Source: Chloroflexota bacterium
Lineage (GTDB): Bacteria > Chloroflexota > Anaerolineae > Aggregatilineales > Phototrophicaceae
Length of the DNA: 64,000 bases
Direction of reading: 5' to 3'
Assembly: GCA_016223085.1 (NCBI GenBank)
Contig: JACRPS010000029.1
Location: 1 to 64,000 of the forward strand
Shown piece by piece: positions 5,451 through 18,121 of this stretch. Numbering within the stretch: position 1 is the stretch's first letter; each line of letters begins with the position of its first letter. Both the position numbers and the translations under genes were made by a program. Below the pieces are notes generated by a model. That model was not told where the DNA came from. It worked only from the letters and a program-made list of their open reading frames with translations, and ran no database searches.

Positions 5451-6065
5451 TTATTGGGCCGACAGCGACCGGATGTAGGCAATAATCGCCAGAATGTCCT
5501 CATCAGACAGCGCGGGGTTGCCACCTTTGGGCGGCATATCAATGCCGGTAGTGTTCAGCGGGTCCCAGATCGGGCGACCGGTTTTGATAAACGTTAACAG
5601 TTCTTCGTCAGTTTGCGAGTGGATAAACTCGCTTGCTACCAAATCCTTGCCCAAGTTCGGCAGCCCCCGCCCGTCCGGCCCGTGACAGGCCGAACACAGT
5701 AAAAACTGCTGCTGGCCGCGCGCGACCAACCCCGGGTCGTAACCGGTTGCAGCCCCCACCGCGTCGGCTGACGCAGCTTCAGCGACCACCGTCGGCGCGC
5801 TGGTGGCTGTCGGAGGCAGTTCGGTTGGCGTGGCCGAGGGCGCAGCCGTTGGCGGTTGGGTCGGCGGCTGCGTGGGGGGCAGCGGCGTGGCCGAGGGCTG
5901 GCTGGTGGGCGTAGCCGCCTGCGCCACCTGAGTATCGCTTTTGTTCTGCCCCGGCAGTTGTGAAAAAACGAGGATACTGACCAGTACAAACGCCGTCATG
6001 ATAACAAAGGTTACGACGCTGGTGTTGATGGACTCGTCAGTCCGGCTCTGATACTGCTGCGACAT
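5451..6065 (-). CDS. membrane-anchored cytochrome c, nos-cluster associated
   Basis: A 204-residue protein with an N-terminal membrane helix (about residues 17-36), a 70-residue Thr/Pro/Ala/Ser linker and a C-terminal monohaem domain. The haem site is CSACH at 124-128 and the likely axial Met is M177 in IDMPPKGG. The layout is that of a periplasm-facing tethered electron carrier. Clade II nos clusters commonly carry c-type cytochromes thought to feed NosZ, and this gene lies at the end of the nos cluster on the same strand. A 163-base gap with a palindrome separates it from the lipoprotein gene, so it may have its own promoter. Its role as NosZ donor is inferred. Confidence 0.85.
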   Translation of the reverse strand: MSQQYQSRTDESINTSVVTFVIMTAFVLVSILVFSQLPGQNKSDTQVAQAATPTSQPSATPLPPTQPPTQPPTAAPSATPTELPPTATSAPTVVAEAASADAVGAATGYDPGLVARGQQQFLLCSACHGPDGRGLPNLGKDLVASEFIHSQTDEELLTFIKTGRPIWDPLNTTGIDMPPKGGNPALSDEDILAIIAYIRSLSAQ

Positions 6066-6164
6066 GTATTTCTCCTGTAAATCCGTTCAGAAATTCTCCA
6101 CCCGCCCGGCGTTGGCTGTGACCAGGCAGACGCGTTGAAGGGAGTGGCGAAAATTGCGGTCACG

Positions 6165-6190
6165 CAGGGACACGATCTATCGTGTCCCCA
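6165..6190. repeat. dispersed GTAGGG-type palindrome
   Basis: Inverted repeat with arms AGGGACACGAT and ATCGTGTCCC, between the cytochrome c and lipoprotein genes. Confidence 0.82.
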
Positions 6191-6228
6191 CAAAAAACAT
6201 CCTCAAAATTCCCCACACCCCGGTTGAA

Positions 6229-6972
6229 TTAGCGTATCACCACTTCCTGATCGAAGGTTTGTTCCACCTGCTGACCATCGGCAAGCGTGACCGTGATCGT
6301 CACCTGCCAGTCTCCGGCCATCGTCCAGGCCAGCGGCACGGTATACCGTCCGCCGCCGACATGCTCGCCGTGGCCGCTGACCGGCATCATGCCGGCGTGC
6401 GCCATATTGCCAATGATTGCAACGGCGGCATCCGTGACTGGACGACCCTCTGCCGTTGTCACCGTCACGGTTACTTCGCTACTGCCGAGTCTGGCCGGGT
6501 TATGGTCCGGCTCATAGGCGATGGACACGGCAGCGTCCGCCGTTGCTTCTGCCGTCGCGGCGGCATGGCGGTTGATGATGCTGTCGCTGGCAACGGCCTC
6601 CACAAAAAACTCGACTGTTTTGCTGATTTCGCCGCCGTTGTCCGGCAGTTGGGCCGTGACGGTCACAATCCAGCCGCCGCCCATCGTCCACTCAAACGGC
6701 ACGCGATATTCGCCATTCGCGCTGTCCTTCACTTCCCGGTCAACCGATACCATGCCGGCGTGATCCATATCCCCGTGAACCCGGAGCGTCGCGCCATCAA
6801 TCGGCCTGCCGCTGCTATCGGTCAGGCTGACCAGCAGCGTCGTTGCGCCCACCGCCAGCGGCTCGGACTCCGCCCGCACCGCGATACTGACGTTAACGGG
6901 CGTGGGCTGGACAGCAACCCGCGTGCCGCAGGCCGCCAGCAGCACGCTCAACAACAGGACAACCGCTTTCAC
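6229..6972 (-). CDS. lipoprotein with two YtkA/FixH-like domains, possible copper chaperone
   Basis: A 247-residue lipoprotein with lipobox LLAAC (Cys15). The rest is a tandem repeat of one beta-sandwich domain. Domain 1 (about 23-127) has M69-D-H71-A-G-M74 and the core WTMGGGW; domain 2 (about 145-247) has M190-A-H192-A-G-M195 and WTMAGDW, plus an extra His pair (H201, H204). Closely spaced Met and His residues of this kind are typical copper ligands, and YtkA/FixH-like domains occur in proteins tied to copper enzymes. The start is GTG overlapping the nosY stop as GTGA, so it is translationally coupled to the nos operon. No nosL is present, so it may deliver copper to NosZ; this is inferred. 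Confidence 0.8.
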   Translation of the reverse strand: MKAVVLLLSVLLAACGTRVAVQPTPVNVSIAVRAESEPLAVGATTLLVSLTDSSGRPIDGATLRVHGDMDHAGMVSVDREVKDSANGEYRVPFEWTMGGGWIVTVTAQLPDNGGEISKTVEFFVEAVASDSIINRHAAATAEATADAAVSIAYEPDHNPARLGSSEVTVTVTTAEGRPVTDAAVAIIGNMAHAGMMPVSGHGEHVGGGRYTVPLAWTMAGDWQVTITVTLADGQQVEQTFDQEVVIR

Positions 6973-7823
6973 CGCGCACTTCCCTTCTGTGTGAATTTTT
7001 CCTGACGCGCAAACAGCACCACCGCGCCCAGCAGCGGCAGCACCATCCAGATGACCAGCCCTAGCAGGAGCAGCGGCAGCAGCAGCCCGCCGAACTGGTC
7101 GGTGGCGTACAAACCCGCCGGCCCCAGCACTTCCAGATTGGCCTGAATCGTGAGGATGGAGGCAATCTTAAACATTTGCAGCGGATTGAGTACCGCGATC
7201 AGAAACACGGCTTCGATGGGGAGCTGCATGGTGATGGCCGTGCCCATAATGCCCAGATCGCCGATGAACACCAGAAACAGCCACAGGAACAGCGCGCCGC
7301 CCAGCGCGGCGGCAGTCTTTTGCGCCAGCGTGGACATCAGAAAGCCGAGGCTGAGCATCGCCAGCGCCAGCAGGTACGCCAGCAGCACCGTGAGCAGGTA
7401 GCCGCCGGCATCGTTGATGCTGCCCTGCAGCGCCAGCGCCACCCCCGCCACCCCGAAACCGAGCGTCAGGGTGGCAAACAGCGCGCCCGCCATGCCCAGA
7501 TATTTGCCGAGCAGCACTTCCACCCGGCTCACCGGCTGCGCCAGCAGGTACACCAGCGCGCCCGTTTCGCGGTCGCCGGACAGGTTGGCCGAACCCAGCG
7601 TCAGGCCGATCAACGGCACAAACAGCAGCACCAGGTTAATCAGGCTGGCGGTCGTACGGCTGTAACTCATCAGCGCCGGTCGGATGCCGCCGGGCTGCAT
7701 CAGTGACGACAGCGCCAGCGCCAGCCCGGCGAAGGCAACGGTAAACACGATAAACCAGCGGTTGCGCAGGCCGTCGCGCAGTTCCTTACCCGTAATTGTT
7801 CGGACGTTGGCGAAGTCAATCAT
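6969..7823 (-). CDS. nosY: NosY, ABC-2 type permease
   Basis: A 284-residue integral membrane protein with about six helices, matching NosY. The N-terminus (VRTITGKELRDGLRNRWF) and the cytoplasmic loop SGDRETGALVYLLAQPVSR are hallmarks of NosY-type ABC-2 permeases. ATG 7823 is chosen because GGAGGG lies 5 bases upstream; it overlaps the 3' end of nosF by 8 bases, so the two are coupled. With NosF it forms the transporter that, in studied denitrifiers, works with NosD in building the copper centre of NosZ. Confidence 0.93.
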   Translation of the reverse strand: MIDFANVRTITGKELRDGLRNRWFIVFTVAFAGLALALSSLMQPGGIRPALMSYSRTTASLINLVLLFVPLIGLTLGSANLSGDRETGALVYLLAQPVSRVEVLLGKYLGMAGALFATLTLGFGVAGVALALQGSINDAGGYLLTVLLAYLLALAMLSLGFLMSTLAQKTAAALGGALFLWLFLVFIGDLGIMGTAITMQLPIEAVFLIAVLNPLQMFKIASILTIQANLEVLGPAGLYATDQFGGLLLPLLLLGLVIWMVLPLLGAVVLFARQEKFTQKGSAR

Positions 7824-8694
7824 GGCTACCCTCCACGAAATCACCATCCACGAAGTCGAAGTCTTCCACCGGGATACGCGCCAGTTCCAGCGACCGCAGC
7901 GGTGCGATCTTCGCGCCCAGATTGACCTGCACGTAGACGCTGTGGCCGTTGGGCATCAACACAAAGCCCTGCTCGTTCAGCACCCGCAGGCTGTCGTCGC
8001 GGTGCTGCGCCGGCACCCAGATGCGCAGCCAGCGGTGCAGCCCCAGCTTGTGCGCCAGTTCGTTCGGCTGGCAGTCGAGCGTCAGGCGGCCATCGGTCAG
8101 CACCAGCACGCGGCTGGCAAGCGCGACCACTTCATCCAGTCGGTGCGACGAAAACACAATCGTTTTGCCGGACTGGTTCAGCGTTTGAATGGCATGGATA
8201 AAATCGCGCTGCGCTTTTACGTCGAGGTTGGCGGTTGGCTCATCCAGCACCAGAATCGGCGGGTCGGCCAGCAGCGCGACCGCGAGCGCCAGTCGCTGCT
8301 TCATGCCGCCGGACAGCATACTGACGCGCTTGGCGGCATGGCCGGTGAGCTGCACCTGTTCCAGCGCCGCCGGAATACGGTCAGCCGAAACCTTTTTCAG
8401 CCGGGCGTAGAAGTGCAGCGTTTCGGTGATGGTCATGTCGTAAAAGACGGTTTCCTGCGGCACGTAGCCGATAGCGGCGCGCGCGGCCTTGCTGCTGCGG
8501 CGCACGTCCAGGCCATTCACCGACAGGTCGCCGTCAAAGCCCTGAAGCCCCAGCAGGCAGCGCAGTGTCGTGGTTTTGCCCGCGCCGTTCGCGCCCCACA
8601 GCGCAACCGATTCACCGGCCTGAATGGTGAACGACACCTGATCGAGCGCCAGATTGTTGCCGTAACGTTTGGATAAGTTCGTCGCTGTAATCAT
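7816..8694 (-). CDS. nosF: NosF, ABC transporter ATPase
   Basis: A 292-residue ATPase. Walker A is GANGAGKTT (34-42), the signature is LSGGMKQRLALA, Walker B is ILVLDEPTANLD, and a switch His follows in SSHRLDEV. The C-terminal 80 residues form the extra domain seen in NosF-like ATPases. ATG 8694 has a GGCGGAG site and lies 2 bases after the nosD stop. It powers NosY at the inner face of the membrane in NosZ maturation. Confidence 0.94.
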   Translation of the reverse strand: MITATNLSKRYGNNLALDQVSFTIQAGESVALWGANGAGKTTTLRCLLGLQGFDGDLSVNGLDVRRSSKAARAAIGYVPQETVFYDMTITETLHFYARLKKVSADRIPAALEQVQLTGHAAKRVSMLSGGMKQRLALAVALLADPPILVLDEPTANLDVKAQRDFIHAIQTLNQSGKTIVFSSHRLDEVVALASRVLVLTDGRLTLDCQPNELAHKLGLHRWLRIWVPAQHRDDSLRVLNEQGFVLMPNGHSVYVQVNLGAKIAPLRSLELARIPVEDFDFVDGDFVEGSHD

Positions 8695-8696
8695 GC

Positions 8697-10163
8697 TTAC
8701 TCCGCCCCGGCTGGAAGGCCAGCCTGTCTCGTTTTTGCCTGTCGAATCCAGCCTGGCTGCGGTCGCAGCGCCAGCGCGCACACCAGCGCCCCCGCGCCCA
8801 GCAGCGCCAGCGCGGCAGCCAGAAACGCCGGCGACACCTGCTGTGACCCGGCGGCGATCTCCGGCGGGATGCCGTAGCGCATCCGGGGCGCGGTATCAAT
8901 CAGCTTGGGGTCTGGCCGCAGCGATGGGAACGCCGACGCCGCGAAGTCCAGCGCCTGCGTCGTCGGGCTGTAGGCAAACAGCCGCAGCACTGGGTGGGCA
9001 TCCGCCAGACTCTCAAACAGTTTTTCCGAACGATAAGGCAGATCGCCCACACCATCGCCGGCGCGGTCATAGCCCACGTAGTTGCTCCAGTAATTGCCGA
9101 CGCCGTCCTGGTCCCACAGATTGCCCAGCAGATCGCCGCGCCCCTGCACGCTCACCTGCTGGTAGTTTTCGAGAAAGACGTTGTTCTGGAAGATGTTGCG
9201 TTTGACGGACGGCAAAGCGGTCAAGCCGACATCGTTGTAGGCCAGGAAGTTCTCGCTAAAGACGTTGTTCACGTCGTACAGCGAGGGGGAGTTGTCCAGA
9301 TACACCGCCGACACGTTGCCAACAAACGTATTGTTGGTCACACGGGCGTTGTCCATATCCTTGAAGGCAATGCCATAGCCACTCGCTCCCCGGTTATGGA
9401 TAAACTGGTTGCCCGTCATCGTCAGGCCGGCGGAATACATCATGTACGCACCGACGGCGTTGTCTTCAATGATGTTGTTTTCCACCACCGCATTTTTGTT
9501 GTACATGAAGTGCAGACCGTAGCGGTTGTGGTGGATGCGGTTGTCCCGAATTGTGATATTGTCGGCGTACCAGATGAGCGTATCGCGCCCGGTGGTAATC
9601 TCGTTGCCGATCAGCCGGACATCGTTGCTGTACCAGACGCGGATGCCGTCGCCGCGCATACTCTCGTCCAGCGGCTTGCCGCGAATGATGTTATTCTGCG
9701 CCAGACCGTCCGCCGCATTAGCGAAGTAGATGCCAAACAGCACGTCGTCCAGCACGTTATTGGCAACCGTCACGCCTGCCGCCTGAATGACAATAGCGGT
9801 GTCTTCGTGCGTCAGGCTGGCGCCACTGCCGCGTACGGTAAAGCCGCTGAAGGACACGTCCGGCGCGTTAATCAGCACCAGGCTGCCCTGGCCGCCACCA
9901 TCAATCACCGGCTGCTGAACGCCTACCAGCGACACGGTTTTGTCTATCACCAGCGGGGCGGGGTACGTGCCGCCGCGCACTTCGATGACATCGCCCGGCG
10001 CTGCCGCCGTCAGCGCCGCTTCAATCGTGGTGTAGGCGCCGTCCGGCGCAACCACCAGTGGCTGGCTCTGGGCCACCACCGGCTCAGCCAGCGCGCTCAG
10101 GAACACCATCAGGGCGGCGAGGATCATAAAACGGCGGGGTGCGTAAACCGGGTGCGTCTTCAT
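8697..10163 (-). CDS. nosD: NosD, periplasmic copper-centre assembly protein
   Basis: A 488-residue protein with an N-terminal export signal (about residues 10-31), a right-handed parallel beta-helix of NosD/CASH repeats (about 45-380, many NNxI/NxI turns such as ENNIIEDNAVGAYMMYS), and a C-terminal membrane helix (about 445-466) followed by a short basic tail. This is the standard NosD layout with the membrane anchor found in many non-proteobacterial versions. It is 5 bases downstream of the nosB-like gene and 2 bases before nosF, inside the operon. In known systems it is essential for the CuZ centre of NosZ. Confidence 0.94.
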   Translation of the reverse strand: MKTHPVYAPRRFMILAALMVFLSALAEPVVAQSQPLVVAPDGAYTTIEAALTAAAPGDVIEVRGGTYPAPLVIDKTVSLVGVQQPVIDGGGQGSLVLINAPDVSFSGFTVRGSGASLTHEDTAIVIQAAGVTVANNVLDDVLFGIYFANAADGLAQNNIIRGKPLDESMRGDGIRVWYSNDVRLIGNEITTGRDTLIWYADNITIRDNRIHHNRYGLHFMYNKNAVVENNIIEDNAVGAYMMYSAGLTMTGNQFIHNRGASGYGIAFKDMDNARVTNNTFVGNVSAVYLDNSPSLYDVNNVFSENFLAYNDVGLTALPSVKRNIFQNNVFLENYQQVSVQGRGDLLGNLWDQDGVGNYWSNYVGYDRAGDGVGDLPYRSEKLFESLADAHPVLRLFAYSPTTQALDFAASAFPSLRPDPKLIDTAPRMRYGIPPEIAAGSQQVSPAFLAAALALLGAGALVCALALRPQPGWIRQAKTRQAGLPAGAE

Positions 10164-10168
10164 CAGGA

Positions 10169-10837
10169 TTACCCTTTGGGCTGCACCAGCCTACCGCTGA
10201 GTTTGATGAGCAGCGCAACGGCGATCAGGAGGCTGCCGGCGGCGATGATGTACCAGCCGGTATCCACGTAAGCAATAGTCTTAAACTGCCCGATCACACC
10301 TTCACCCAGAATCGGCGGGGTGAACGGTTGGATCGAACTGGACAGCGGGGCATACGGGTCAAGGTTCTGGCCGTAATACGCCATCCACAAACCGAGATCG
10401 GCCAGAAACACTACCGGGAACGCAAACGCGGGAAGCGCCAGCAGCCACGTCCAGCGCCGCCGCCAGACCGCCGCCACCACCAGCAGCACCGCCATGATAA
10501 AGACGGCGGGAAGGGCGATAGACCGCTCGAATTTGGCGGCTTCATACAGCGATTTCATACCGATGTAGTGGTTGAGGCCATCAATTTCGCGCACTTCGTC
10601 CAGCCTGGGGTCTTCGTCGCCGGTCATGTTGTTGACAAAGACGCGCATCCGCAGCCCGCCGGGATACTGCGGCGCTTGCAGCACCAGCCCCCAGTACGGC
10701 GCGCTGATCGAAACCAGCAGCAGCACCGCCGCGCCGAGGAACAGAACCGACGGCAGCCACTTCAGCCAGCGGCGGGAAGCGGTCTGAGAGGCGCGGCTGG
10801 CGCTGGTATTGGTCGAAGAAATAACGTTGGTTGTCAT
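10169..10837 (-). CDS. nosB: NosB-like integral membrane protein
   Basis: A 222-residue membrane protein with four predicted helices and a large outer loop after helix 1 (APYWGLVLQAPQYPGG to GLNHYIGMKSL). Clade II nos clusters regularly carry a membrane protein of this size next to nosZ, called NosB in Wolinella; position and layout match. The family's role is unknown. The start is taken at ATG 10837, with a modest AGG site, but ATG 10849 is possible. It lies 70 bases after nosZ and 5 before nosD. The gene symbol rests on position and topology, not on alignment. Confidence 0.75.
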   Translation of the reverse strand: MTTNVISSTNTSASRASQTASRRWLKWLPSVLFLGAAVLLLVSISAPYWGLVLQAPQYPGGLRMRVFVNNMTGDEDPRLDEVREIDGLNHYIGMKSLYEAAKFERSIALPAVFIMAVLLVVAAVWRRRWTWLLALPAFAFPVVFLADLGLWMAYYGQNLDPYAPLSSSIQPFTPPILGEGVIGQFKTIAYVDTGWYIIAAGSLLIAVALLIKLSGRLVQPKG

Positions 10838-10907
10838 AACAAACCTCATGTGTCTGAGGAAGGGGGCGGCAGGGATAAACCCTGCCACCCCACCTGCCTG
10901 CGATAGC

Positions 10908-12920
10908 TTACTGTGGCTTCACCATCATGTAGCCCATCATTTCGAGATGGAGCGCGGAGCAGAACTCGGTGCAGTAGAAGCTGAAGACACCGGAGCGCGT
11001 CGCCTCAAACTCGAACGTAATGGATTCACCCGGCTCGATGCTCAGGTTGATGTTATAGAAGGGGATGGCGAACCCGTGGGTTGCGTCGCGGGCGCGTTCC
11101 ACGTTGGTGATTGTCCACGTTACATGGTCGCCTTCCTGAATTTCGACATGTTCCGGCGTCATGTGGCTGCGGACGGCGGTCATGCGCACGGTGACGTTAT
11201 TGCCATCGCGGGTCACGCCTTCCGTCCCCTGCGCGACGGCGTTCGGGTCCACCGACTGCGTCAGCGGGTTCCAGCCCACTTCAGGGTACACTTCCCACGC
11301 CTTCAGCTTGTCCGCCTTGATGATCTGCGAGTAGTGCGGCTCCGCGCCGGTGATGGGCATGTCGTACAGAATCTGCGTCTGGTCGCCCGGCTGCGAGATG
11401 TCAATCAACTGAAGGTTCTGCGGCAGCAGTGGGCCGGTGCTGAGGAAACGGTCTACCGACCACTTGTTAAGCGCGACCAGGAAGCGGCCATCCGGTGTAG
11501 TCGTGTCGCCTTCCGCAGCGGCCAGATGCCCTACGTTATACTGAACGGGAGTTTTGTTGATGAGCTTCCAGCCATCCTGCGGGCGGTAGCCTTCCGCACC
11601 GATGCTCCAGCGCGCCACGGCGCTGTCGAGGAACAGGCTGGTATAGGCGTAGCCCTGATCATCATACACGGTGTGCAGCGGGCCAAGGCCGAGTTCGACC
11701 TGCGCTTCCAGCACGCTTTCCAGCGCCAGCACCGGCACGCCAAACGGGTCTTTCTCGGTTGGGCCGGCGGCGATGGCGTCCTTGATCTTCTGGAAGCTGT
11801 ACACCGACACATGCGGGTCGAGCTTGCCACCGATGGAGATGAAATCACCCTTCGGTGTCACATCCGCGCCGTGTGGGCTACGGGGTTCCGGCGCCAGGTA
11901 CAGCAGGCCGTTTTCGATCACCGTTTCCAGCGGAATAACCTTGAAGCCCTTCACATCCACCGCCGCGCCGGCCTGGAAGACCGCTTCCGCCGCCTTCAGG
12001 TTGATGATGTGCAGGTAATCCACCGCGCCCTTGCTGACACCGGCTTCAAACGGCGGGTTGCCCTTCTCAATACCGCCAAACGCCATTTCAGCGTTAAACG
12101 AATTGCAGAAAATCCAGCCCTCGGAAACCAGCTTGCCGGAATCGCACAGGTCCTGCCAGTACGGGGGCAGTTCCATCGCAAACGACTTGCTGTAATCAAT
12201 GCGCCCGGCGTCGCGGTCGAACTTCCAGAAGGTAATCATGCCGCTGTAGGAATTCTGATAATCCTCAATCGGCGCATAGTCACCGCCGACGGGCAGACCA
12301 TACTGCGCGCCTTCGACGATATATTCGGTGTTGGGCGTCACAAACGTGCCGCCGTGATCGTTCAGGAAGGCGGGATTGTGGACGATCTGCTTGGTTTCGA
12401 AGTCGCGCAGGTCAATCACCGCCACGCGCCCGTTGGCCTTGTCGCCGATGAACAGCCACTGGCCGTCGTATTCGCCATTGGTTTCGCTCAGCGCCGGGTG
12501 GTGCGTGTCGCCCCACAGGATTTCCTGCCCGTCAATGAAGCCCTGCTCCAGCACTTCGTTGCCGGCACCGTAGCCATACCCCTGCCAGGGTTCGGGCGCA
12601 AACACCGAAATCAGGCGCAGCAGCCGCATCGAAGGCAGACCAATCGCCAGCACCTGCCCGCCCTGACCCGCCGACGCAAACATGACGTATTCATCCAGTT
12701 TGCCGCTGGGCGTATACGTCATCGCCGCCGCGCGCATGTCGGCTTCGGTCAGCCCGCGCTGCTCGGCAATCGTCTGCCAGTCGAGGCTGCTGCCCTGGGC
12801 GCTGGTCATCGCTTTGGGCGCGATCACCAGGGCCACCAGGACGGCTACCGCCGCGACCGCCCCTATAACCACTACTTTTGAGAATAATCGTTGTGAAATC
12901 ATCGGTTGTTCTGTCTCCAT
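10908..12920 (-). CDS. nosZ: NosZ, clade II nitrous oxide reductase (Sec-exported)
   Basis: A 670-residue NosZ that reduces N2O to N2 outside the cytoplasmic membrane. The N-terminus is a plain hydrophobic signal (about residues 13-35) with no twin-arginine motif, the mark of the clade II type. CuZ-site histidines are seen in DTHHPALSET, FLNDHGGTFV, PRSPHGADV, LGPLHTVYDD, VGHLAAAEGD and GAEPHYSQ. The C-terminal cupredoxin has the CuA ligands C650, C654, H658 and M661 in FYCTEFCSALHLEMMGYM. Length and motif order are normal and the gene looks intact. It is the first gene of the operon; a CRP-type site lies upstream at 13007-13024. The start could also be the internal ATG seven codons in. Confidence 0.97.
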   Translation of the reverse strand: METEQPMISQRLFSKVVVIGAVAAVAVLVALVIAPKAMTSAQGSSLDWQTIAEQRGLTEADMRAAAMTYTPSGKLDEYVMFASAGQGGQVLAIGLPSMRLLRLISVFAPEPWQGYGYGAGNEVLEQGFIDGQEILWGDTHHPALSETNGEYDGQWLFIGDKANGRVAVIDLRDFETKQIVHNPAFLNDHGGTFVTPNTEYIVEGAQYGLPVGGDYAPIEDYQNSYSGMITFWKFDRDAGRIDYSKSFAMELPPYWQDLCDSGKLVSEGWIFCNSFNAEMAFGGIEKGNPPFEAGVSKGAVDYLHIINLKAAEAVFQAGAAVDVKGFKVIPLETVIENGLLYLAPEPRSPHGADVTPKGDFISIGGKLDPHVSVYSFQKIKDAIAAGPTEKDPFGVPVLALESVLEAQVELGLGPLHTVYDDQGYAYTSLFLDSAVARWSIGAEGYRPQDGWKLINKTPVQYNVGHLAAAEGDTTTPDGRFLVALNKWSVDRFLSTGPLLPQNLQLIDISQPGDQTQILYDMPITGAEPHYSQIIKADKLKAWEVYPEVGWNPLTQSVDPNAVAQGTEGVTRDGNNVTVRMTAVRSHMTPEHVEIQEGDHVTWTITNVERARDATHGFAIPFYNINLSIEPGESITFEFEATRSGVFSFYCTEFCSALHLEMMGYMMVKPQ

Positions 12921-13053: not shown

Positions 13054-13776
13054 CTAGCGGGCTTCCTGAAGCGCAATCACACGGAGGGTGTCGAGATCAA
13101 GGATGTAGATGGTATCGCGCGTCAGTCGAACCAGCCCATCATCCTCAAATTTTTTGAAGGTGCGGTAGACCACTTCGCGGGCGGTCCCGACCATGTCAGC
13201 ATATTCCTGCTGGGACAGCAGCCGGTCGAAGTAAACGCCGCCCGCTTCGTGGGGTCGTCCCTCCAGTTCCGCGCGGGCCAGCAGGACGGTGGCAAGCCGG
13301 GAGGTGACATCCCGGAACGCCAGATCGTGTACCAGCGTCACAAACTGCTTGAGGCGGTCGGTTATCAGACGCAGGAACACTTCCTGGAAATCGGCGTGTT
13401 CATCCAGCAGCGTTTGCAGAACATCTGCCGGCAGCGTAACCGCTTTTACCGGCGTCAGTGTGGTTGCCGAGTACGGGCTGAGGCCGCCGGTTGGCAGCGA
13501 CTCTGCGCCCAGGCAGTCGCCCGGCAGCGGCAGCGCCAGTATCTGGCACTTCTCCTTTGACCGGCGGTACAACTTCACCCGGCCTGATTGCAGCGCGAAC
13601 AGACCGCTGGGCGGGTCGCCCTGGCGGTACAGGTCTACCCCTGTCGGATACACAGCCAGCACCGCTTTTTCCGCCAGACAGCGATGGGTACGCGGGCTGA
13701 GCGCCTTAAAGAGTTGAATCGTGGATAAGGAATCCGCCGTGACCATCATATAACTGCCGTTAGCTTCGTTGACCAT
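13054..13776 (-). CDS. CRP/FNR-family transcription regulator 1
   Basis: A 240-residue regulator with an N-terminal cyclic-nucleotide-type beta roll (about 20-130), a dimer helix (about 131-165) and a C-terminal winged helix. The recognition helix holds R200-E201-x3-R205 (TAREVVYRTF), the same reading head that lets CRP bind TGTGA. It has no FNR-type N-terminal cysteine cluster; single cysteines are C33, C77 and C88. It lies directly before nosZ, with a CRP-type site on each side. The ATG at 13776 has no clear ribosome site, and a TATGCT box 7 bases upstream suggests a leaderless message. It likely controls the nos operon and itself. Confidence 0.93.
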   Translation of the reverse strand: MVNEANGSYMMVTADSLSTIQLFKALSPRTHRCLAEKAVLAVYPTGVDLYRQGDPPSGLFALQSGRVKLYRRSKEKCQILALPLPGDCLGAESLPTGGLSPYSATTLTPVKAVTLPADVLQTLLDEHADFQEVFLRLITDRLKQFVTLVHDLAFRDVTSRLATVLLARAELEGRPHEAGGVYFDRLLSQQEYADMVGTAREVVYRTFKKFEDDGLVRLTRDTIYILDLDTLRVIALQEAR

Positions 13777-13808: not shown

Positions 13809-13826
13809 ATGTGACCTAAATCACGT
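13809..13826 (-). promoter_or_regulatory. CRP-family operator upstream of crp-like gene 1
   Basis: ATGTGACCTAAATCACGT shares the flanks and first arm of the site before nosZ (both read CTGATGTGACC) and has one weak position in the second arm. It ends exactly at the last base of the crp2 stop codon region and is centred 41.5 bases before the crp1 ATG. Confidence 0.8.
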
Positions 13827-14536
13827 TATGGGGTCGTTGTCTCATCGGGACAGGCGCATGGTGGCAGCAGCGCGTTGGGGTTCAGCAGGGTAATGCGCCC
13901 TACTTCATTCCGCACGACCCCTTCTTTTTCCAGATGAGTCAGGTGACGGGTCACCACCTCACGCACGGTGCCAACGAGCGACGCCAGTTTTTCGTGGGTG
14001 AGTTCAATCGTCGGCTGTGGTTCGGTACGGTCGGCGTACGTCAGCAGGCAGTCGTTAATCCGGTCGGCCACCGACCACGACCCCAGCACTTCGCTGACAC
14101 GCGACAGGTGTTCCAGCCGCTGGCTGTAGACATGCAGCAGCGCTTTGACAAGCTGCGGATCGCGCGTTTTGAGCTGCTGGAAGGCTTCGTCGGGCAGGAC
14201 AAACAGTGTCACCTGATTCAGCGCCTGGGCAGACGCCGGATTCTTCTCCATGTCAAACAGGGGGCAACTGCCAAAACATTTGCCCCGGTTCATCAAACAC
14301 AATCCCTGTATCCGCCCGTTCAGCGACTGTTTGATGATCTTAACCTGCCCCGCAGCCACAAACCACAAGGAACCGGCTTGCTCACCCTCCATAAAAATCA
14401 TCTGGCCGGGCGCGTAATTGCGGCGCACCATGACGGCAGCGAGACTTCGCACCTGTTCATCCGGCAGGTTGCGAAACGCGGGGATGTCGTACAGTTCCTC
14501 GATCTTCACTGATGAATAATCGGCCATCAGCTTCAC
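13826..14536 (-). CDS. CRP/FNR-family transcription regulator 2, cysteine-rich
   Basis: A 236-residue CRP/FNR-type regulator: beta roll (about 20-120), dimer helix (about 121-160) and winged helix with R192-E193-x3-R197 (TVREVVTRHL), again a CRP-type reading head. Unlike regulator 1 it has six cysteines: C80, C87 and C91 clustered in the beta roll, C163, and a C-terminal CxC (C227, C229) after the DNA-binding domain. This could hold a metal or Fe-S sensor, as the C-terminal cluster does in Bacillus FNR, but the spacing differs from known forms. Start is GTG 14536 with GGTGA upstream, or ATG 14527. It precedes crp1 by 49 bases on the same strand. Confidence 0.92.
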   Translation of the reverse strand: MKLMADYSSVKIEELYDIPAFRNLPDEQVRSLAAVMVRRNYAPGQMIFMEGEQAGSLWFVAAGQVKIIKQSLNGRIQGLCLMNRGKCFGSCPLFDMEKNPASAQALNQVTLFVLPDEAFQQLKTRDPQLVKALLHVYSQRLEHLSRVSEVLGSWSVADRINDCLLTYADRTEPQPTIELTHEKLASLVGTVREVVTRHLTHLEKEGVVRNEVGRITLLNPNALLPPCACPDETTTP

Positions 14537-14599: not shown

Positions 14600-16009
14600 T
14601 CAGCCAAACCGCCGGTTGCTCCACACCCGCTGGGTGAATACGTCGGCCACGCTCTGGATGTCGCCCTGCGCGACAATCACATCCAGCAGCACGTTGGGGT
14701 ACTGCTGGGCAATCGCCTGCCGCATCGAATCCACCATGTCCGGCGGGGTGATGACGGTGACACCCAGGCTACGGTCATTGGGGATGAAGTCAATGAAGTT
14801 CCAGGCGGTGGTTACAATCGGGCGGAACTGCTGCCAGTAAGCCTGCGCCGTGTCAAAGAACCAGGCTGGGTCCAGCCCCGGCGCCAGCACAACGGCGTGG
14901 AAGTCCGGCTCGCCGTGAATTGGCCCCGGCCCGCGCACGGTGTACTCGCCGTGTGTTGGTGGCTGTCCGCGCCAGCCAATCTGCCGAATCTGTTCCAGAC
15001 GCTGCACCGCCGGCAGCGAGTAATTGTAATAGTCATCCTCTTTCCACAGGCACAGGCCGATCAGCCATTCCGGCCCCTGGGTTGCCATCCAGTTAAACAT
15101 CGCGGCGGTGGCTTCGCCGTGACTCTGCGGCGTGTAGGGCGGGAAGCGGCTGTCCGGCTGCTTGGTTTCGCCGTTGGCGGGCAGCGGATAGATGCCGCCT
15201 TCGGTGCCGACCGCCGGCACGGGGTCAAGGTCAAACCACTCCTTCAGCCGCTGGTTGAAGACTGTGCCCATGCCGATCAGGCTGTTGGGGTCGCCGAAGG
15301 CGGTAATGCCGGGCGAGATGGACTGGGAAATCGGGTCGTAGGGATACTCAAAGTGCCAGCCGCCTTCTGCGCCGTTCTGCTGTTCCGGCGGGCGCGCCAC
15401 CAGCGGATTGCCGGGCATCTCCTGATAGAAGTGGTTGAGGGTGTACGGGTGCACCGCCGCATAGCCGCCGCTGCGCATGATGTTGATAAACCGCTCGCGC
15501 CGGTGATCGCGCAGGAAGATCAGCATGGCGTCCATGAACTGCACCACATCCGACGATTCGCCCAGCGCCGGGAAGCCGGGATAGCCGCCGATGCTGAGGA
15601 TGTATTCGGCGAAGATAATCCAGTTGTCGCACAGGGGGCGAATCACCTGCTCGATGTTGGTGTAATGCACGTGCGGGCGCATCTCCTCCGGCCACTCGGG
15701 GTCGGGGAAGTTCGGCTCATTATAGAACTCAAACCACAGCGCCCCGGCGCGGCGGTAGGTTTCCCAGTAGCGCCGCACGCCTTCGTCCACTGGCTCGGCC
15801 CCTGGCACGGCGCGGTAAATGCGGATCACCGGCGTGATGTTCAGACTGAGCAGCGTCGGAATGTCCTTCACAAACTCGTCACCGCCGCAGACCAGTTTCA
15901 TCCAGCCCAGTTGCAGGTGCCGGTAGCGGTCGAAGTTGAGCGCCTTGTACGCGCCCTCGTTGTGCAGGCCGCGCGGGTTGCGCGACCACTGGTATTCGTC
16001 TAGTCGCAA
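14600..16009 (-). CDS. TIM-barrel glycoside hydrolase-like protein with novel C-terminal domain (copy A)
   Basis: A 469-residue protein. Residues 1-350 look like a clan A TIM barrel: E98 in FEFYNEPN fits the acid/base at the end of strand 4, and E270 in AVGTEGGIYP fits the nucleophile at strand 7. No signal peptide is seen, so it would act inside the cell or be exported by an unknown route. Residues 368-469 form a separate domain (PDFHAVVLAPGLDPAWFFD onward) shared with the next two genes. Start is TTG 16009 with GAGGA upstream. It is about half identical to the 16127 gene by eye. Substrate unknown; the hydrolase role is inferred from the two Glu sites. Confidence 0.7.
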   Translation of the reverse strand: MRLDEYQWSRNPRGLHNEGAYKALNFDRYRHLQLGWMKLVCGGDEFVKDIPTLLSLNITPVIRIYRAVPGAEPVDEGVRRYWETYRRAGALWFEFYNEPNFPDPEWPEEMRPHVHYTNIEQVIRPLCDNWIIFAEYILSIGGYPGFPALGESSDVVQFMDAMLIFLRDHRRERFINIMRSGGYAAVHPYTLNHFYQEMPGNPLVARPPEQQNGAEGGWHFEYPYDPISQSISPGITAFGDPNSLIGMGTVFNQRLKEWFDLDPVPAVGTEGGIYPLPANGETKQPDSRFPPYTPQSHGEATAAMFNWMATQGPEWLIGLCLWKEDDYYNYSLPAVQRLEQIRQIGWRGQPPTHGEYTVRGPGPIHGEPDFHAVVLAPGLDPAWFFDTAQAYWQQFRPIVTTAWNFIDFIPNDRSLGVTVITPPDMVDSMRQAIAQQYPNVLLDVIVAQGDIQSVADVFTQRVWSNRRFG

Positions 16010-16126
16010 GGCTCGTTCCTCGTTTTTAGTCTTCAGTCATCCGTCGTCAGTTGTCAGTCAGGAACAAAAGTCAGCCATAGCTGTACTAAAAAAGCAGAAA
16101 ACTGACCACTGAAAACGGATAACTAA
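16010..16126. repeat. CAGTC/TCAGT-rich simple repeat spacer
   Basis: The gap between the two glycosidase-like genes contains short repeats of the CAGTCATCCGTCGTCAGTTGTCAGTCAGG kind in pieces (TCAGT, GTCAGT). Similar tracts occur at 28010-28050 and 53724-53760. Confidence 0.6.
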
Positions 16127-17566
16127 CTACCCAAAGCGCCGGTCGCTCCAGACACGGGCATTCAGCACGCTGGCGACGCTGGTTAGCTCGCTTTCCGCCA
16201 CGATTACGTCCAGCACCACATTCGGATACTGCTTTTGCAGCGTTTCGGTGATGGACTGCACCACGTCCGGTGGCGCGATCACGGTCGCGGCCAGGCTGCG
16301 GTTGTTGGGAATGTACTGGATAAAATCCCAGCCGGTCGTGACCAGCGGGCGGAAGCGATTCCAGTACGCCCGTGCCGTATCAAAGAACCAGTCCGGCGCC
16401 AACCCTGGCGCGAGGATGACGGCGTGCAGGTCCGGTTCGCCGTGCACCGGCCCCGGGCCGTTGGGCGCTTTCATCACTTCCAGCGGCGGCACGGTCTTAA
16501 ACAGCGGCGGGGTTTCGCGCAGCCGTTCAATCGCCCGCACCGGCCCAAGCCGGTAATACTCGTCCTCTTTCCACAAACACACGCCGAAGAACCAGGGTGG
16601 CGCCTGCCGCGCGCTCCACTCGAACATGGCGACCGTCGCTTCCGCCTGGCTGTCGCGGGTGTAGGGCGGATAGCGGTTGTCCTGCTGGTAAAACGGTTCT
16701 TCGTTAAACGGGAATATGCCGCCCTCCGTGCCCACCACCGGCACGGCCTGCGACCCCCAGATTTGGGCGCAGCGTTCGTTAAACATCTGCCCCATCGCCA
16801 CCAGACCGGTTGGATCACCGTGCGGCGTTTTGGCGGTGCCGCCGTAGACGGTACGACCGGGGTCGGTCTGCTGCGAGATGGGGTCGTAGGGGTATTCGAA
16901 GTGCCAGCCCGGTTCGCGGGCGTTCTGCTGCTCCGGCGGGCGGGCGCTGGCCGGCCCCTGGCCGGGGATTTCCTGATAGAAATGGTTGAGGATGTAGGGG
17001 TGCGTGGCGCAGTAGAGGCCGTTGTTCAGCAGCGTGGCGAAGCGGTCAAAGTGCGCCTGCGCCAGATAATTCAGGAAGGCATCCATCCAGCGCACGGACG
17101 CCGACTCCGGCGCGGCGCTTTCCGCCAGCGCGGTGAAGCCGGGGTAACAGCCCAGCCCGGCGACAAATTCCGCCCAGACCATCCAGTTGTCCATCAGCGG
17201 GCGAATCATGCCGTCGAAGTTCTGCCAGCTAATCCACGCGCCCGGCGGCCATTCGATTGGCAGATTGGGTTCGTTGTAGAACTCAAACCAGCGGACGCCG
17301 GCGCGCACGTATTGCAGCGTCAGATCGCGCAGACGGCCATCAAACGGCATCGCGCCGGGGCGCTCCACGTACAGCCGCACGATGGGCGTGATACCCCGCG
17401 CCAGGAAATCCATCGCGTCGTCCACGTATTCGTGTTCGGCGGCCACCAGCTTCACCCAGCCGAAATGGGGTTCGGTCCAGCGGGAATACTCCAGCGGCGT
17501 AATCAGGGCGCGCTGGACATGCAGGCCGCGCGGATTCCGCGACCAGATGTACTGGTCAAGCCGCAT
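16127..17566 (-). CDS. TIM-barrel glycoside hydrolase-like protein with novel C-terminal domain (copy B)
   Basis: A 479-residue paralog of the 14600 gene. The shared opening is SRNPRGLH; E99 in FEFYNEPNLP and the Glu of VVGTEGGIFPF again suit a clan A acid/base and nucleophile. Shared middle motifs are HPYILNHFYQE, WHFEYPYDPISQ and LCLWKEDEYY. The last 100 residues are the same C-terminal domain (PDLHAVILAPGLAPDWFFD onward, ending in VWSDRRFG). Its ATG directly follows the TAG of the upstream gene with no gap, and GGAGG sits inside that gene, so the two are translated together. Function inferred as a glycosidase or sugar-binding relative. Confidence 0.7.
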   Translation of the reverse strand: MRLDQYIWSRNPRGLHVQRALITPLEYSRWTEPHFGWVKLVAAEHEYVDDAMDFLARGITPIVRLYVERPGAMPFDGRLRDLTLQYVRAGVRWFEFYNEPNLPIEWPPGAWISWQNFDGMIRPLMDNWMVWAEFVAGLGCYPGFTALAESAAPESASVRWMDAFLNYLAQAHFDRFATLLNNGLYCATHPYILNHFYQEIPGQGPASARPPEQQNAREPGWHFEYPYDPISQQTDPGRTVYGGTAKTPHGDPTGLVAMGQMFNERCAQIWGSQAVPVVGTEGGIFPFNEEPFYQQDNRYPPYTRDSQAEATVAMFEWSARQAPPWFFGVCLWKEDEYYRLGPVRAIERLRETPPLFKTVPPLEVMKAPNGPGPVHGEPDLHAVILAPGLAPDWFFDTARAYWNRFRPLVTTGWDFIQYIPNNRSLAATVIAPPDVVQSITETLQKQYPNVVLDVIVAESELTSVASVLNARVWSDRRFG

Positions 17567-18121
17567 CTACGAGCCTCCGCCGATGATCGGGCCGGGTGTG
17601 GGATACACCGGGCCGGACGGCGTGGACGACGGTTCGGGTTGGGACGGGGTGGGCGTTTCCGTGATGAAGCCGCCGGGCGCGCGCGTGGGCGCGGCGGTCG
17701 GCTGTGCCGGCGCGGGCTGGCCCAGCAGCGACCCCGGCGTTGGCGTGATCGGCGGCGGCGACGTGGGCGTGGGCGCTAACGGTACGCCAAACGGCTGGTT
17801 GAGCGTGGCGCGCGTGTTCAGCGCCTGCTTCATGTCATCGAAGCTGTCGTAGACCACCGGGTCGAACAGGATATGCGGCAAATTTTGCGCGACGGTCACA
17901 CCCCACTGGGCGGCGGTGTCACGGCGGGCGATCACGGTCAGGACGATGCTGTACTCCGGCGGCACCAGGCGTGGCAGTTCCAGGTCGCTGGTGATGATGG
18001 GACGGAAGCGCTCCCAGTAGGCGCGCGCCGCGTCGAACAGCCATTCCGCGCCCAGGTTCGGCGCGATCAGCAAAAAGTGATAGTCGGGAAATTGATCGGG
18101 TGATGGTTGCATGACCGGCAT
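17567..18121 (-). CDS. stand-alone copy of the glycosidase C-terminal domain with Pro/Thr tail
   Basis: A 184-residue protein. Residues 12-115 match the C-terminal domain of the two downstream genes: PDYHFLLIAPNLGAEWLFDAARAYWERFRPIIT lines up in pieces with their PDFH..APGL..WFFDTAQAYW..FRPIVT, and all three end in R-x-W/T-x-x-x-FG. The remaining 70 residues are Pro, Thr, Gly and Ser-rich, like a flexible linker or secreted stalk, though no signal peptide is seen. It heads the three-gene group and is joined to the next gene at TAG-ATG. Ribosome site for ATG 18121 is weak. Likely a carbohydrate or partner-binding module; inferred. Confidence 0.72.
   Translation of the reverse strand: MPVMQPSPDQFPDYHFLLIAPNLGAEWLFDAARAYWERFRPIITSDLELPRLVPPEYSIVLTVIARRDTAAQWGVTVAQNLPHILFDPVVYDSFDDMKQALNTRATLNQPFGVPLAPTPTSPPPITPTPGSLLGQPAPAQPTAAPTRAPGGFITETPTPSQPEPSSTPSGPVYPTPGPIIGGGS

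Follow-up and report, generated by a model that had tools for sequence, protein, structure and literature searches.

Here we describe a nitrous oxide reductase (nos) operon from a Chloroflexota bacterium (Phototrophicaceae, order Aggregatilineales; assembly GCA_016223085.1) in which the slot where relatives keep the copper chaperone gene nosL holds a gene for a lipoprotein with two YtkA/CtaK-like domains. The operon lies in a stretch of 64,000 nucleotides that was analysed as a whole (contig JACRPS010000029.1, positions 1 to 64,000; the window). All of its genes are on the minus strand, in the order nosZ-B-D-F-Y, lipoprotein, cytochrome c, with two regulator genes upstream of nosZ:

13826-14536, minus: second Crp/Fnr-family regulator (PF00027 and PF13545)
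13054-13776, minus: Crp/Fnr-family regulator upstream of nosZ (PF00027 and PF13545)
10908-12920, minus: nosZ, clade II Sec-type nitrous oxide reductase, 670 residues (TIGR04246, 811.7 bits; cut-off 625)
10169-10888, minus: nosB-like membrane protein (a homologue lies between nosZ and nosD in related operons)
8697-10163, minus: nosD, periplasmic beta-helix maturation protein (TIGR04247, 413.4 bits; cut-off 300)
7816-8691, minus: nosF, ATP-binding cassette (ABC) ATPase (PF00005, position, homologues)
6969-7847, minus: nosY, ABC-2 permease (PF12679)
6229-6972, minus: lipoprotein with two YtkA/CtaK-like, immunoglobulin (Ig)-like domains (PF13115 twice, lipobox, alignment, model, co-occurrence)
5451-6065, minus: membrane-anchored single-haem cytochrome c (PF00034; same place in related nos operons)

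Judged by its sequence, this is a clade II nos operon: NosZ is of the Sec type, with no twin-arginine motif seen by eye, and a nosB-like gene lies between nosZ and nosD. The nosB-like protein matches no Pfam or NCBIfam family and is named from its position and kin. The lipoprotein gene is coupled to nosY by a GTGA overlap at 6972-6969, in which its GTG start (6972-6970) lies on the TGA stop of nosY (6971-6969). A gap of 163 bases separates it from the cytochrome c gene, which the original reading of the letters did not name, which is kept beside nos in relatives and whose product is perhaps an electron donor for NosZ. Homologues of both Crp/Fnr regulators adjoin nosZ in most nos operons of the order. 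An earlier reading made from the letters of this DNA (the original prediction) had placed a nosZ without Tat (twin-arginine translocation) signal, a nosB-like gene, nosD, nosF and nosY in one operon, followed by a lipoprotein coupled to nosY and made of two repeats of one beta domain, with nosL absent; the family matches, the overlap as read in the sequence and the conserved motifs described below bear this description out.

Sequence and predicted structure of the lipoprotein

PF13115 (YtkA) matches the lipoprotein in two stretches (77.1 bits; cut-off 25.9), and weaker matches are to FixH, Big_1, CopC and invasin- and filamin-type families. Neither PF05573 (NosL) nor PF04314 (PCuAC) is among the 17 families that match it at an expectation value (E) of 1 or less. 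Its lipobox, LAA followed by C, ends in the only cysteine of the protein, which is the lipid anchor and is predicted to hold it on the outside of the cytoplasmic membrane; the Cys-x-Met copper motif of NosL, CXM or CXXCXM in the accessible part of the published description (PMC6530538), is absent. The secreted-lipoprotein lipobox and the conserved His and Met residues are traits of the CtaK type.

In mature numbering, the first domain carries M55-D-H57-A-G-M60 and W81-T-M83, and the second M176-A-H178-A-G-M181 and W202-T-M204. All 17 homologues have M55, H57, M60, W81, M83 and W87, and all 13 with the tandem form have M176, M181, W202, M204 and W208; the lipobox Cys is also present in 17 of 17, the rows having been cut at that residue beforehand. 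Met-containing tails and linkers occur in some relatives.

An AlphaFold2 model from 17 sequences has two beta-sandwich domains, with a mean predicted local distance difference test score (pLDDT) of 86.2 and a predicted template modelling score (pTM) of 0.47, the latter leaving the arrangement of the two domains relative to one another uncertain. The strands of domain 1 in the model span residues 14-20, 26-38, 48-55, 63-67, 74-81, 85-94 and 101-114, with the M55-x-H57-x-G-M60 loop after the third strand and W81-T-M83 after the fifth, and both Met/His loops appear to lie at the same end of the Ig-like sandwich. The nearest solved fold in VIA-align is that of Helicobacter pylori CrdA (9ll2; Z 13.9, 1.6 Å, 95 residues); the next-best row has Z 12.2 at a root-mean-square deviation of 13.3, and large unrelated Ig-like proteins rank below CrdA. 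A profile search with the lipoprotein also finds CrdA (E 2.1e-5) and, as a weak match, CcoH (6xkw; E 0.69), and the best 50 Foldseek matches in the PDB are generic tandem Ig-like folds only.

By the profile alignment and the structural end points, Met99 of CrdA corresponds to M204 and the Met loop of CrdA to the M-x-H-x-G-M loop. According to the accessible portion of the work on CrdA, the sulphurs of Met69, 72, 75, 78 and 99 come together in a cluster when the protein is modelled, a micromolar affinity for Cu(II) was measured and a sub-nanomolar one for Cu(I) proposed, and thermophoresis detected no interaction with Cu(I) in the nanomolar range (PMC9182242). We looked for a publication on PDB entry 9LL2 and found none. 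Homology to CrdA and the order of strands suggest that the Met and His residues probably face one another. The original prediction would have been refuted by a predicted structure in which they point away from each other; the answer given here to that condition comes from homology.

NosL and other copper proteins in the source genome

The source assembly (6.03 Mb, 97.85% complete, 37 contigs) contains no match to NosL (PF05573) at E≤0.001 or at E≤10, and control genomes give matches. A nosL gene elsewhere in the genome, which would have refuted the original prediction, was therefore looked for and not found. That a nosL was missed through an assembly gap is unlikely, since 29 of the 30 nosZ genomes of the order lack a nos-linked NosL and the search at E≤10 came back empty. 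Elsewhere, the source genome encodes three Sco proteins and one double-PCuAC protein, which lies next to one Sco. It also has a second YtkA lipoprotein, with a single domain (L072:5633-6010; L numbers denote loci and G numbers genomes), and a protein of CopC-CopD type that YtkA matches at borderline level (L073:4421-6694), an architecture reported for YcnJ.

Short NosL matches, to model positions 53-128, occur in G438, G429, G416, G456 and several genomes of the class. We rejected them as true NosL from one checked case, G132, in which the partial match lies in a DeoR-type helix-turn-helix protein (L075:7519-8106), an architecture that we take to be that of YcnK. This regulator stands in a row with Sco, PCuAC-like and YtkA-like genes (L075:5940-8106), a copper-assembly cassette outside nos.

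Distribution in the order and class

Of 154 genomes in the window's order, 30 carry nosZ. The tandem YtkA lipoprotein directly follows nosY in 13 of them (G000, G019, G146, G270, G414, G428, G431, G432, G438, G448, G450, G456, G504), and a single YtkA domain does so in seven (G127, G279, G437, G453, G459, G468 and G435, where the domain is interrupted). In two more (G444, G447), nosY is followed by cytochrome c, then by a YtkA protein that ends in a cupredoxin-like tail, and then by Sco and PCuAC; these operons are broken up, over two contigs in one genome and three in the other, the pieces being identical to L106, L107 and L119 wherever 300-base blocks were compared, and locus L105 carries nosD through PCuAC on a single contig. 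Five (G107, G222, G242, G416, G421) have a cupredoxin-like protein with a membrane anchor and then cytochrome c, with Sco after the cytochrome in the first four and no Sco in G421. NosL is nos-linked in G511 alone, and in G413 and G429 the contig ends before the slot. The slot can be judged in 27 operons of the NosL-free clade: 20 have YtkA, five have the cupredoxin-like protein and two have both, fused, behind the cytochrome. At least one of YtkA, Sco and PCuAC is present in 26 of these 27, the exception being G421. Locus L105 comes from a Phycisphaerales record, and its YtkA, its Sco and the start of its PCuAC are identical to Anaerolineae locus L106; the contig is probably misbinned.

Full-length matches to our profile of the lipoprotein (A1) number 13, all in nosZ genomes, as are all 21 matches below 1e-45; among the 124 genomes of the order without nosZ there is no full-length match, and the best match reaches 7e-41. 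The profile was made from nos-linked members, whose high scores are therefore partly by construction, and the line at 1e-45 was drawn after seeing the list. Checked in this way, as the original prediction had suggested, the gene travels with nosZ within the order: the tandem form is present in 13 of the 30 nosZ genomes, and no full-length match lies in the 124 others.

In a class sample of 396 genomes, 83 have nosZ, and NosL was sought in 80 of these (G332, G337 and G030 were left out for low completeness). It was matched in 69, G020 having a partial match only. The 11 without a match are all nine sampled from the window's order together with G175 and G200, in both of which the contig stops short of the slot. 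Outside the order, then, 69 of 71 nosZ genomes in the sample match NosL, against one nos-linked NosL in 30 within it.

Named close relatives are metagenome-assembled genomes of Aggregatilineales and other Anaerolineae. Among named genome contigs we found 76 related places, 17 of them nos-linked and 33 with a PCuAC-like match in the locus (E≤1e-5). YtkA and PCuAC share a single frame in L118, L120 and L123, with a Pfam check made on L120. The protein at L123:9941-11722 has 593 residues, a YtkA and a PCuAC-like part and long Asp/Met-rich repeats, and is perhaps a metal sponge.

The cupredoxin-like genes of the sister operons lie between nosY and the cytochrome gene (L034:13632-14072, L036:4460-4900, L037:4264-4704, L068:1739-2179, L069:5074-5481), and in G444 and G447 this domain forms part of the YtkA protein (tail of L105:3760-4482). 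It scores below the Pfam cut-offs in G107 and G242 (Copper-bind, E 0.05-0.06; Cupredoxin_1, E 0.11-0.12), neither family matches the G421 protein or the L105 tail, and the best match in the PDB is plastocyanin (E 0.057). We call it cupredoxin-like from these weak matches together with an invariant His, Cys, His pattern, and the protein is perhaps another copper donor.

NosZ phylogeny and NosL-YtkA fusions

A maximum-likelihood tree was built from 67 of 82 NosZ rows, 15 fragments and loci not selected being left out; G200 and G175 are labelled as NosL-bearing in it by kinship only, since no NosL was found in either and their contigs end before the slot. The order's 29 NosL-free NosZ fall into a single group with support of 100/100. 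NosZ of G511 (L071) falls inside a NosL-bearing group, which suggests that this genome acquired its nos genes by horizontal transfer.

Six genomes of the class (G056, G084, G108, G176, G256, G295) encode NosL and two YtkA domains in one frame. Pfam, run on five of the six, finds NosL and YtkA in all five, with one YtkA stretch over the cut-off in G295; in G084 a PCuAC domain lies between the NosL and YtkA domains. Contig C98 of G020 starts inside an apparent seventh fusion. Apart from the short fragment of G084, the NosZ proteins of fusion-bearing genomes are part of a distant group (12 rows), which makes at least two entries of YtkA into nos operons probable. We considered whether the lipoprotein arose from NosL-YtkA-YtkA by loss of NosL; judged from the NosZ tree, in which the fusions belong to another supported clade, separate recruitments are likelier. 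Fusions aside, no NosL-bearing genome of the class sample has a YtkA match on the nosZ contig at a distance of 20 kb or less; many of these contigs are short.

The copper residues of NosZ and NosD are intact. Among 79-82 NosZ of the class, His at positions 140, 141, 189, 350, 416, 465 and 529, which we take to be CuZ ligands, and the Cys/His/Met set 615, 650, 654, 658 and 661, presumably of CuA, are 99-100% conserved. NosD residues H218, M220 and M242 are shared with NosL-bearing relatives in a comparison of columns over 26 and 19 rows. Compensating Met, His or Cys changes were sought in NosD, NosB, NosF, NosY and NosZ, and a few lineage-specific columns were all that emerged.

Several other features of these operons vary. 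A Cys at a lipobox-like place is found in 87% of the NosL-bearing Anaerolineae NosZ rows that have a letter there, and is missing in the window's order. Position 603 of NosZ is Thr in the window and His in all rows of the NosL clade. NosD and NosF are fused, at about 770-800 residues, in several nos operons of the class (L034, L035, L036, L037, L068, L069, L071 and others), and the nos-adjacent cytochrome c contains an internal duplication, its haem domains being very much alike, at L032:3667-4788 and L038:3858-4868. Upstream of the regulators, at 14600-18121 of the window, three adjacent open reading frames share the pattern A-P-x-L-x-x-x-W-x-F-D-x-A-x-A-Y-W-x-x-F-R-P-I, read by eye in the translations, and the first two are alike along most of their length.

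Discussion

We propose that the lipoprotein is a nos-dedicated, thiol-free copper chaperone of the YtkA/CtaK family standing in the NosL slot, a reading that we regard as likely on the strength of the comparisons above. It would be held by its lipid outside the cytoplasmic membrane, and in each Ig-like domain the M-x-H-x-G-M loop would combine with the Met of W-T-M-G in a thiol-free Met/His site. The protein would hold copper, probably Cu(I), and pass it on for the maturation of NosZ, handing it to the NosD component of NosDFY or straight to apo-NosZ. In the NosL-free lineage its gene takes the place that nosL has in relatives, behind nosY and ahead of the cytochrome gene, and the copper centre that the protein fills could be CuA, CuZ or both. 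We favour this reading because it draws together the YtkA family membership, the linkage to nosZ, the absence of NosL, the NosL and PCuAC fusions, the invariant Met/His residues and the CrdA fold; because the cupredoxin-like protein, another probable copper protein, takes the slot where YtkA is missing; and because the copper residues of NosZ and NosD remain.

Several observations weigh against a dedicated chaperone. The five NosL-free operons without YtkA indicate that it is dispensable, and the Sco and double-PCuAC proteins elsewhere in the source genome could themselves supply copper. The second domain is absent in seven relatives, and its H178, kept in 12 of the 13 tandem homologues, is replaced in one. 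CrdA, moreover, serves copper resistance, and Ig-like domains occur widely.

Published systems bear directly on which centre might be served. As far as the accessible parts of two papers go, the Bacillus subtilis lipoprotein CtaK (YtkA) is implicated, together with Sco, in assembling CuA of cytochrome oxidase, a ctaK mutant is rescued by copper, and Sco and PCuAC assemble CuA in other systems (PMC9145763, PMC13344008). NosL is described as a Cu(I) chaperone for CuZ, without which both centres fail at low copper, in the portion available of another (PMC6530538). The original prediction held that the lipoprotein may deliver copper to NosZ instead of NosL. The delivery of copper to NosZ gains support from the absence of NosL, the nosZ linkage, the NosL-YtkA-YtkA fusions and the loops at one end of the domain. 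The words 'instead of NosL' are less secure, because NosL is a CuZ factor, whereas CtaK, Sco and PCuAC are CuA factors, and the lipoprotein may serve CuA only.

That last alternative is a serious one, if somewhat short of an even chance: the lipoprotein would be CtaK-like and act with Sco and/or PCuAC on CuA, and CuZ would be filled via NosDFY without NosL, so that the protein, for all its place in the NosL slot, would be no replacement for NosL. YtkA/CtaK, Sco and PCuAC make up the published CuA set, and all three follow nosY and the cytochrome gene in G444 and G447, as Sco follows the cytochrome gene in G107, G222, G242 and G416. Paracoccus denitrificans without nosL shows no denitrification phenotype at sufficient copper in the part of the report available (PMC6530538), so some CuZ can be filled when NosL is lacking. 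A pure CuA helper, however, leaves the loss of NosL in the lineage unexplained, as well as the position of the gene next to nosY in NosL's place and the lack of YtkA near nosZ in NosL-bearing genomes other than those with fusions.

The presence of Sco, PCuAC and the cupredoxin-like protein in sister operons points to a CuA toolkit as the source of copper for NosZ in this lineage. We tentatively extend this to a fuller model, about which we are rather doubtful: that CuZ delivery in the NosL-free lineage passed from the cysteine-based NosL to recruits of its slot, mostly the YtkA lipoprotein and in a sister branch the cupredoxin-like protein, with one kit loading both CuA and CuZ.

It is unlikely, in our judgement, that the protein serves for copper storage or resistance in the manner of CrdA, buffering copper around NosZ without handing it over. 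The closest solved fold is indeed a copper-resistance determinant, and the Met-containing tails and linkers of some relatives would suit such a role, but co-occurrence with nosZ is tight and natural fusions join this domain to the chaperones NosL and PCuAC. Least probable of all is an Ig-like structural or docking lipoprotein without a copper role, holding NosZ or the cytochrome near the membrane: the family matches to Big_1 and to invasin and filamin types fit it, as do the many Ig-like folds matched, and the NosZ of the order, without the lipobox-like Cys of NosL-clade rows, may need a tether, but the Met, His and Trp of both loops are invariant and the domain keeps company with Sco, PCuAC, cupredoxin-like and NosL domains.

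Nitrous oxide is removed mainly by NosZ, an enzyme limited by copper loading, and the supply of copper to CuZ is understood chiefly through NosL. A NosL-free lineage that keeps its CuZ and CuA ligands, together with the NosL-YtkA-PCuAC fusions, offers a way to test what can be exchanged in the delivery of copper to NosZ and whether the loading of CuA and CuZ shares a pathway. The YtkA subfamily gains a concrete candidate function, and nosL becomes an unsafe marker for a complete clade II nos operon. Clusters without nosL were known before: in the accessible part of one study, three of four nos clusters of Schinkia lack it (PMC13274427). We found no report, in open-licence literature judged mostly from listings, of a YtkA lipoprotein replacing NosL in its slot or of NosL-YtkA fusions.

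Compared with known systems by family and description, the lipoprotein resembles CtaK in being a YtkA-domain lipoprotein with conserved His and Met and an association with a CuA-bearing respiratory enzyme; CtaK serves cytochrome caa3 with Sco, whereas the window protein has two domains, is encoded in a nos operon and presumably has NosZ as its client. With NosL it shares the slot after nosY, the lipid anchor and the presumed role of copper donor to NosZ, but it has neither a PF05573 match nor a Cys-x-Met motif. The NosL-(PCuAC-)YtkA-YtkA fusions (L039, L041, L042, L044, L045, L046) have the same two YtkA domains, in the same slot and followed by the same kind of cytochrome c; they keep NosL, however, and with their NosZ in a distant clade they are unlikely to be direct ancestors. 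CrdA has the same single-domain fold, with a Met-rich loop and a Met equivalent to M204, but acts in copper resistance, lacks the His and has one domain. PCuAC (PF04314) and Sco (PF02630) belong to other families, with no match to the window protein, yet they too deliver copper in the periplasm, and in sister operons they are encoded beside the YtkA gene or, in the case of Sco, in its place.

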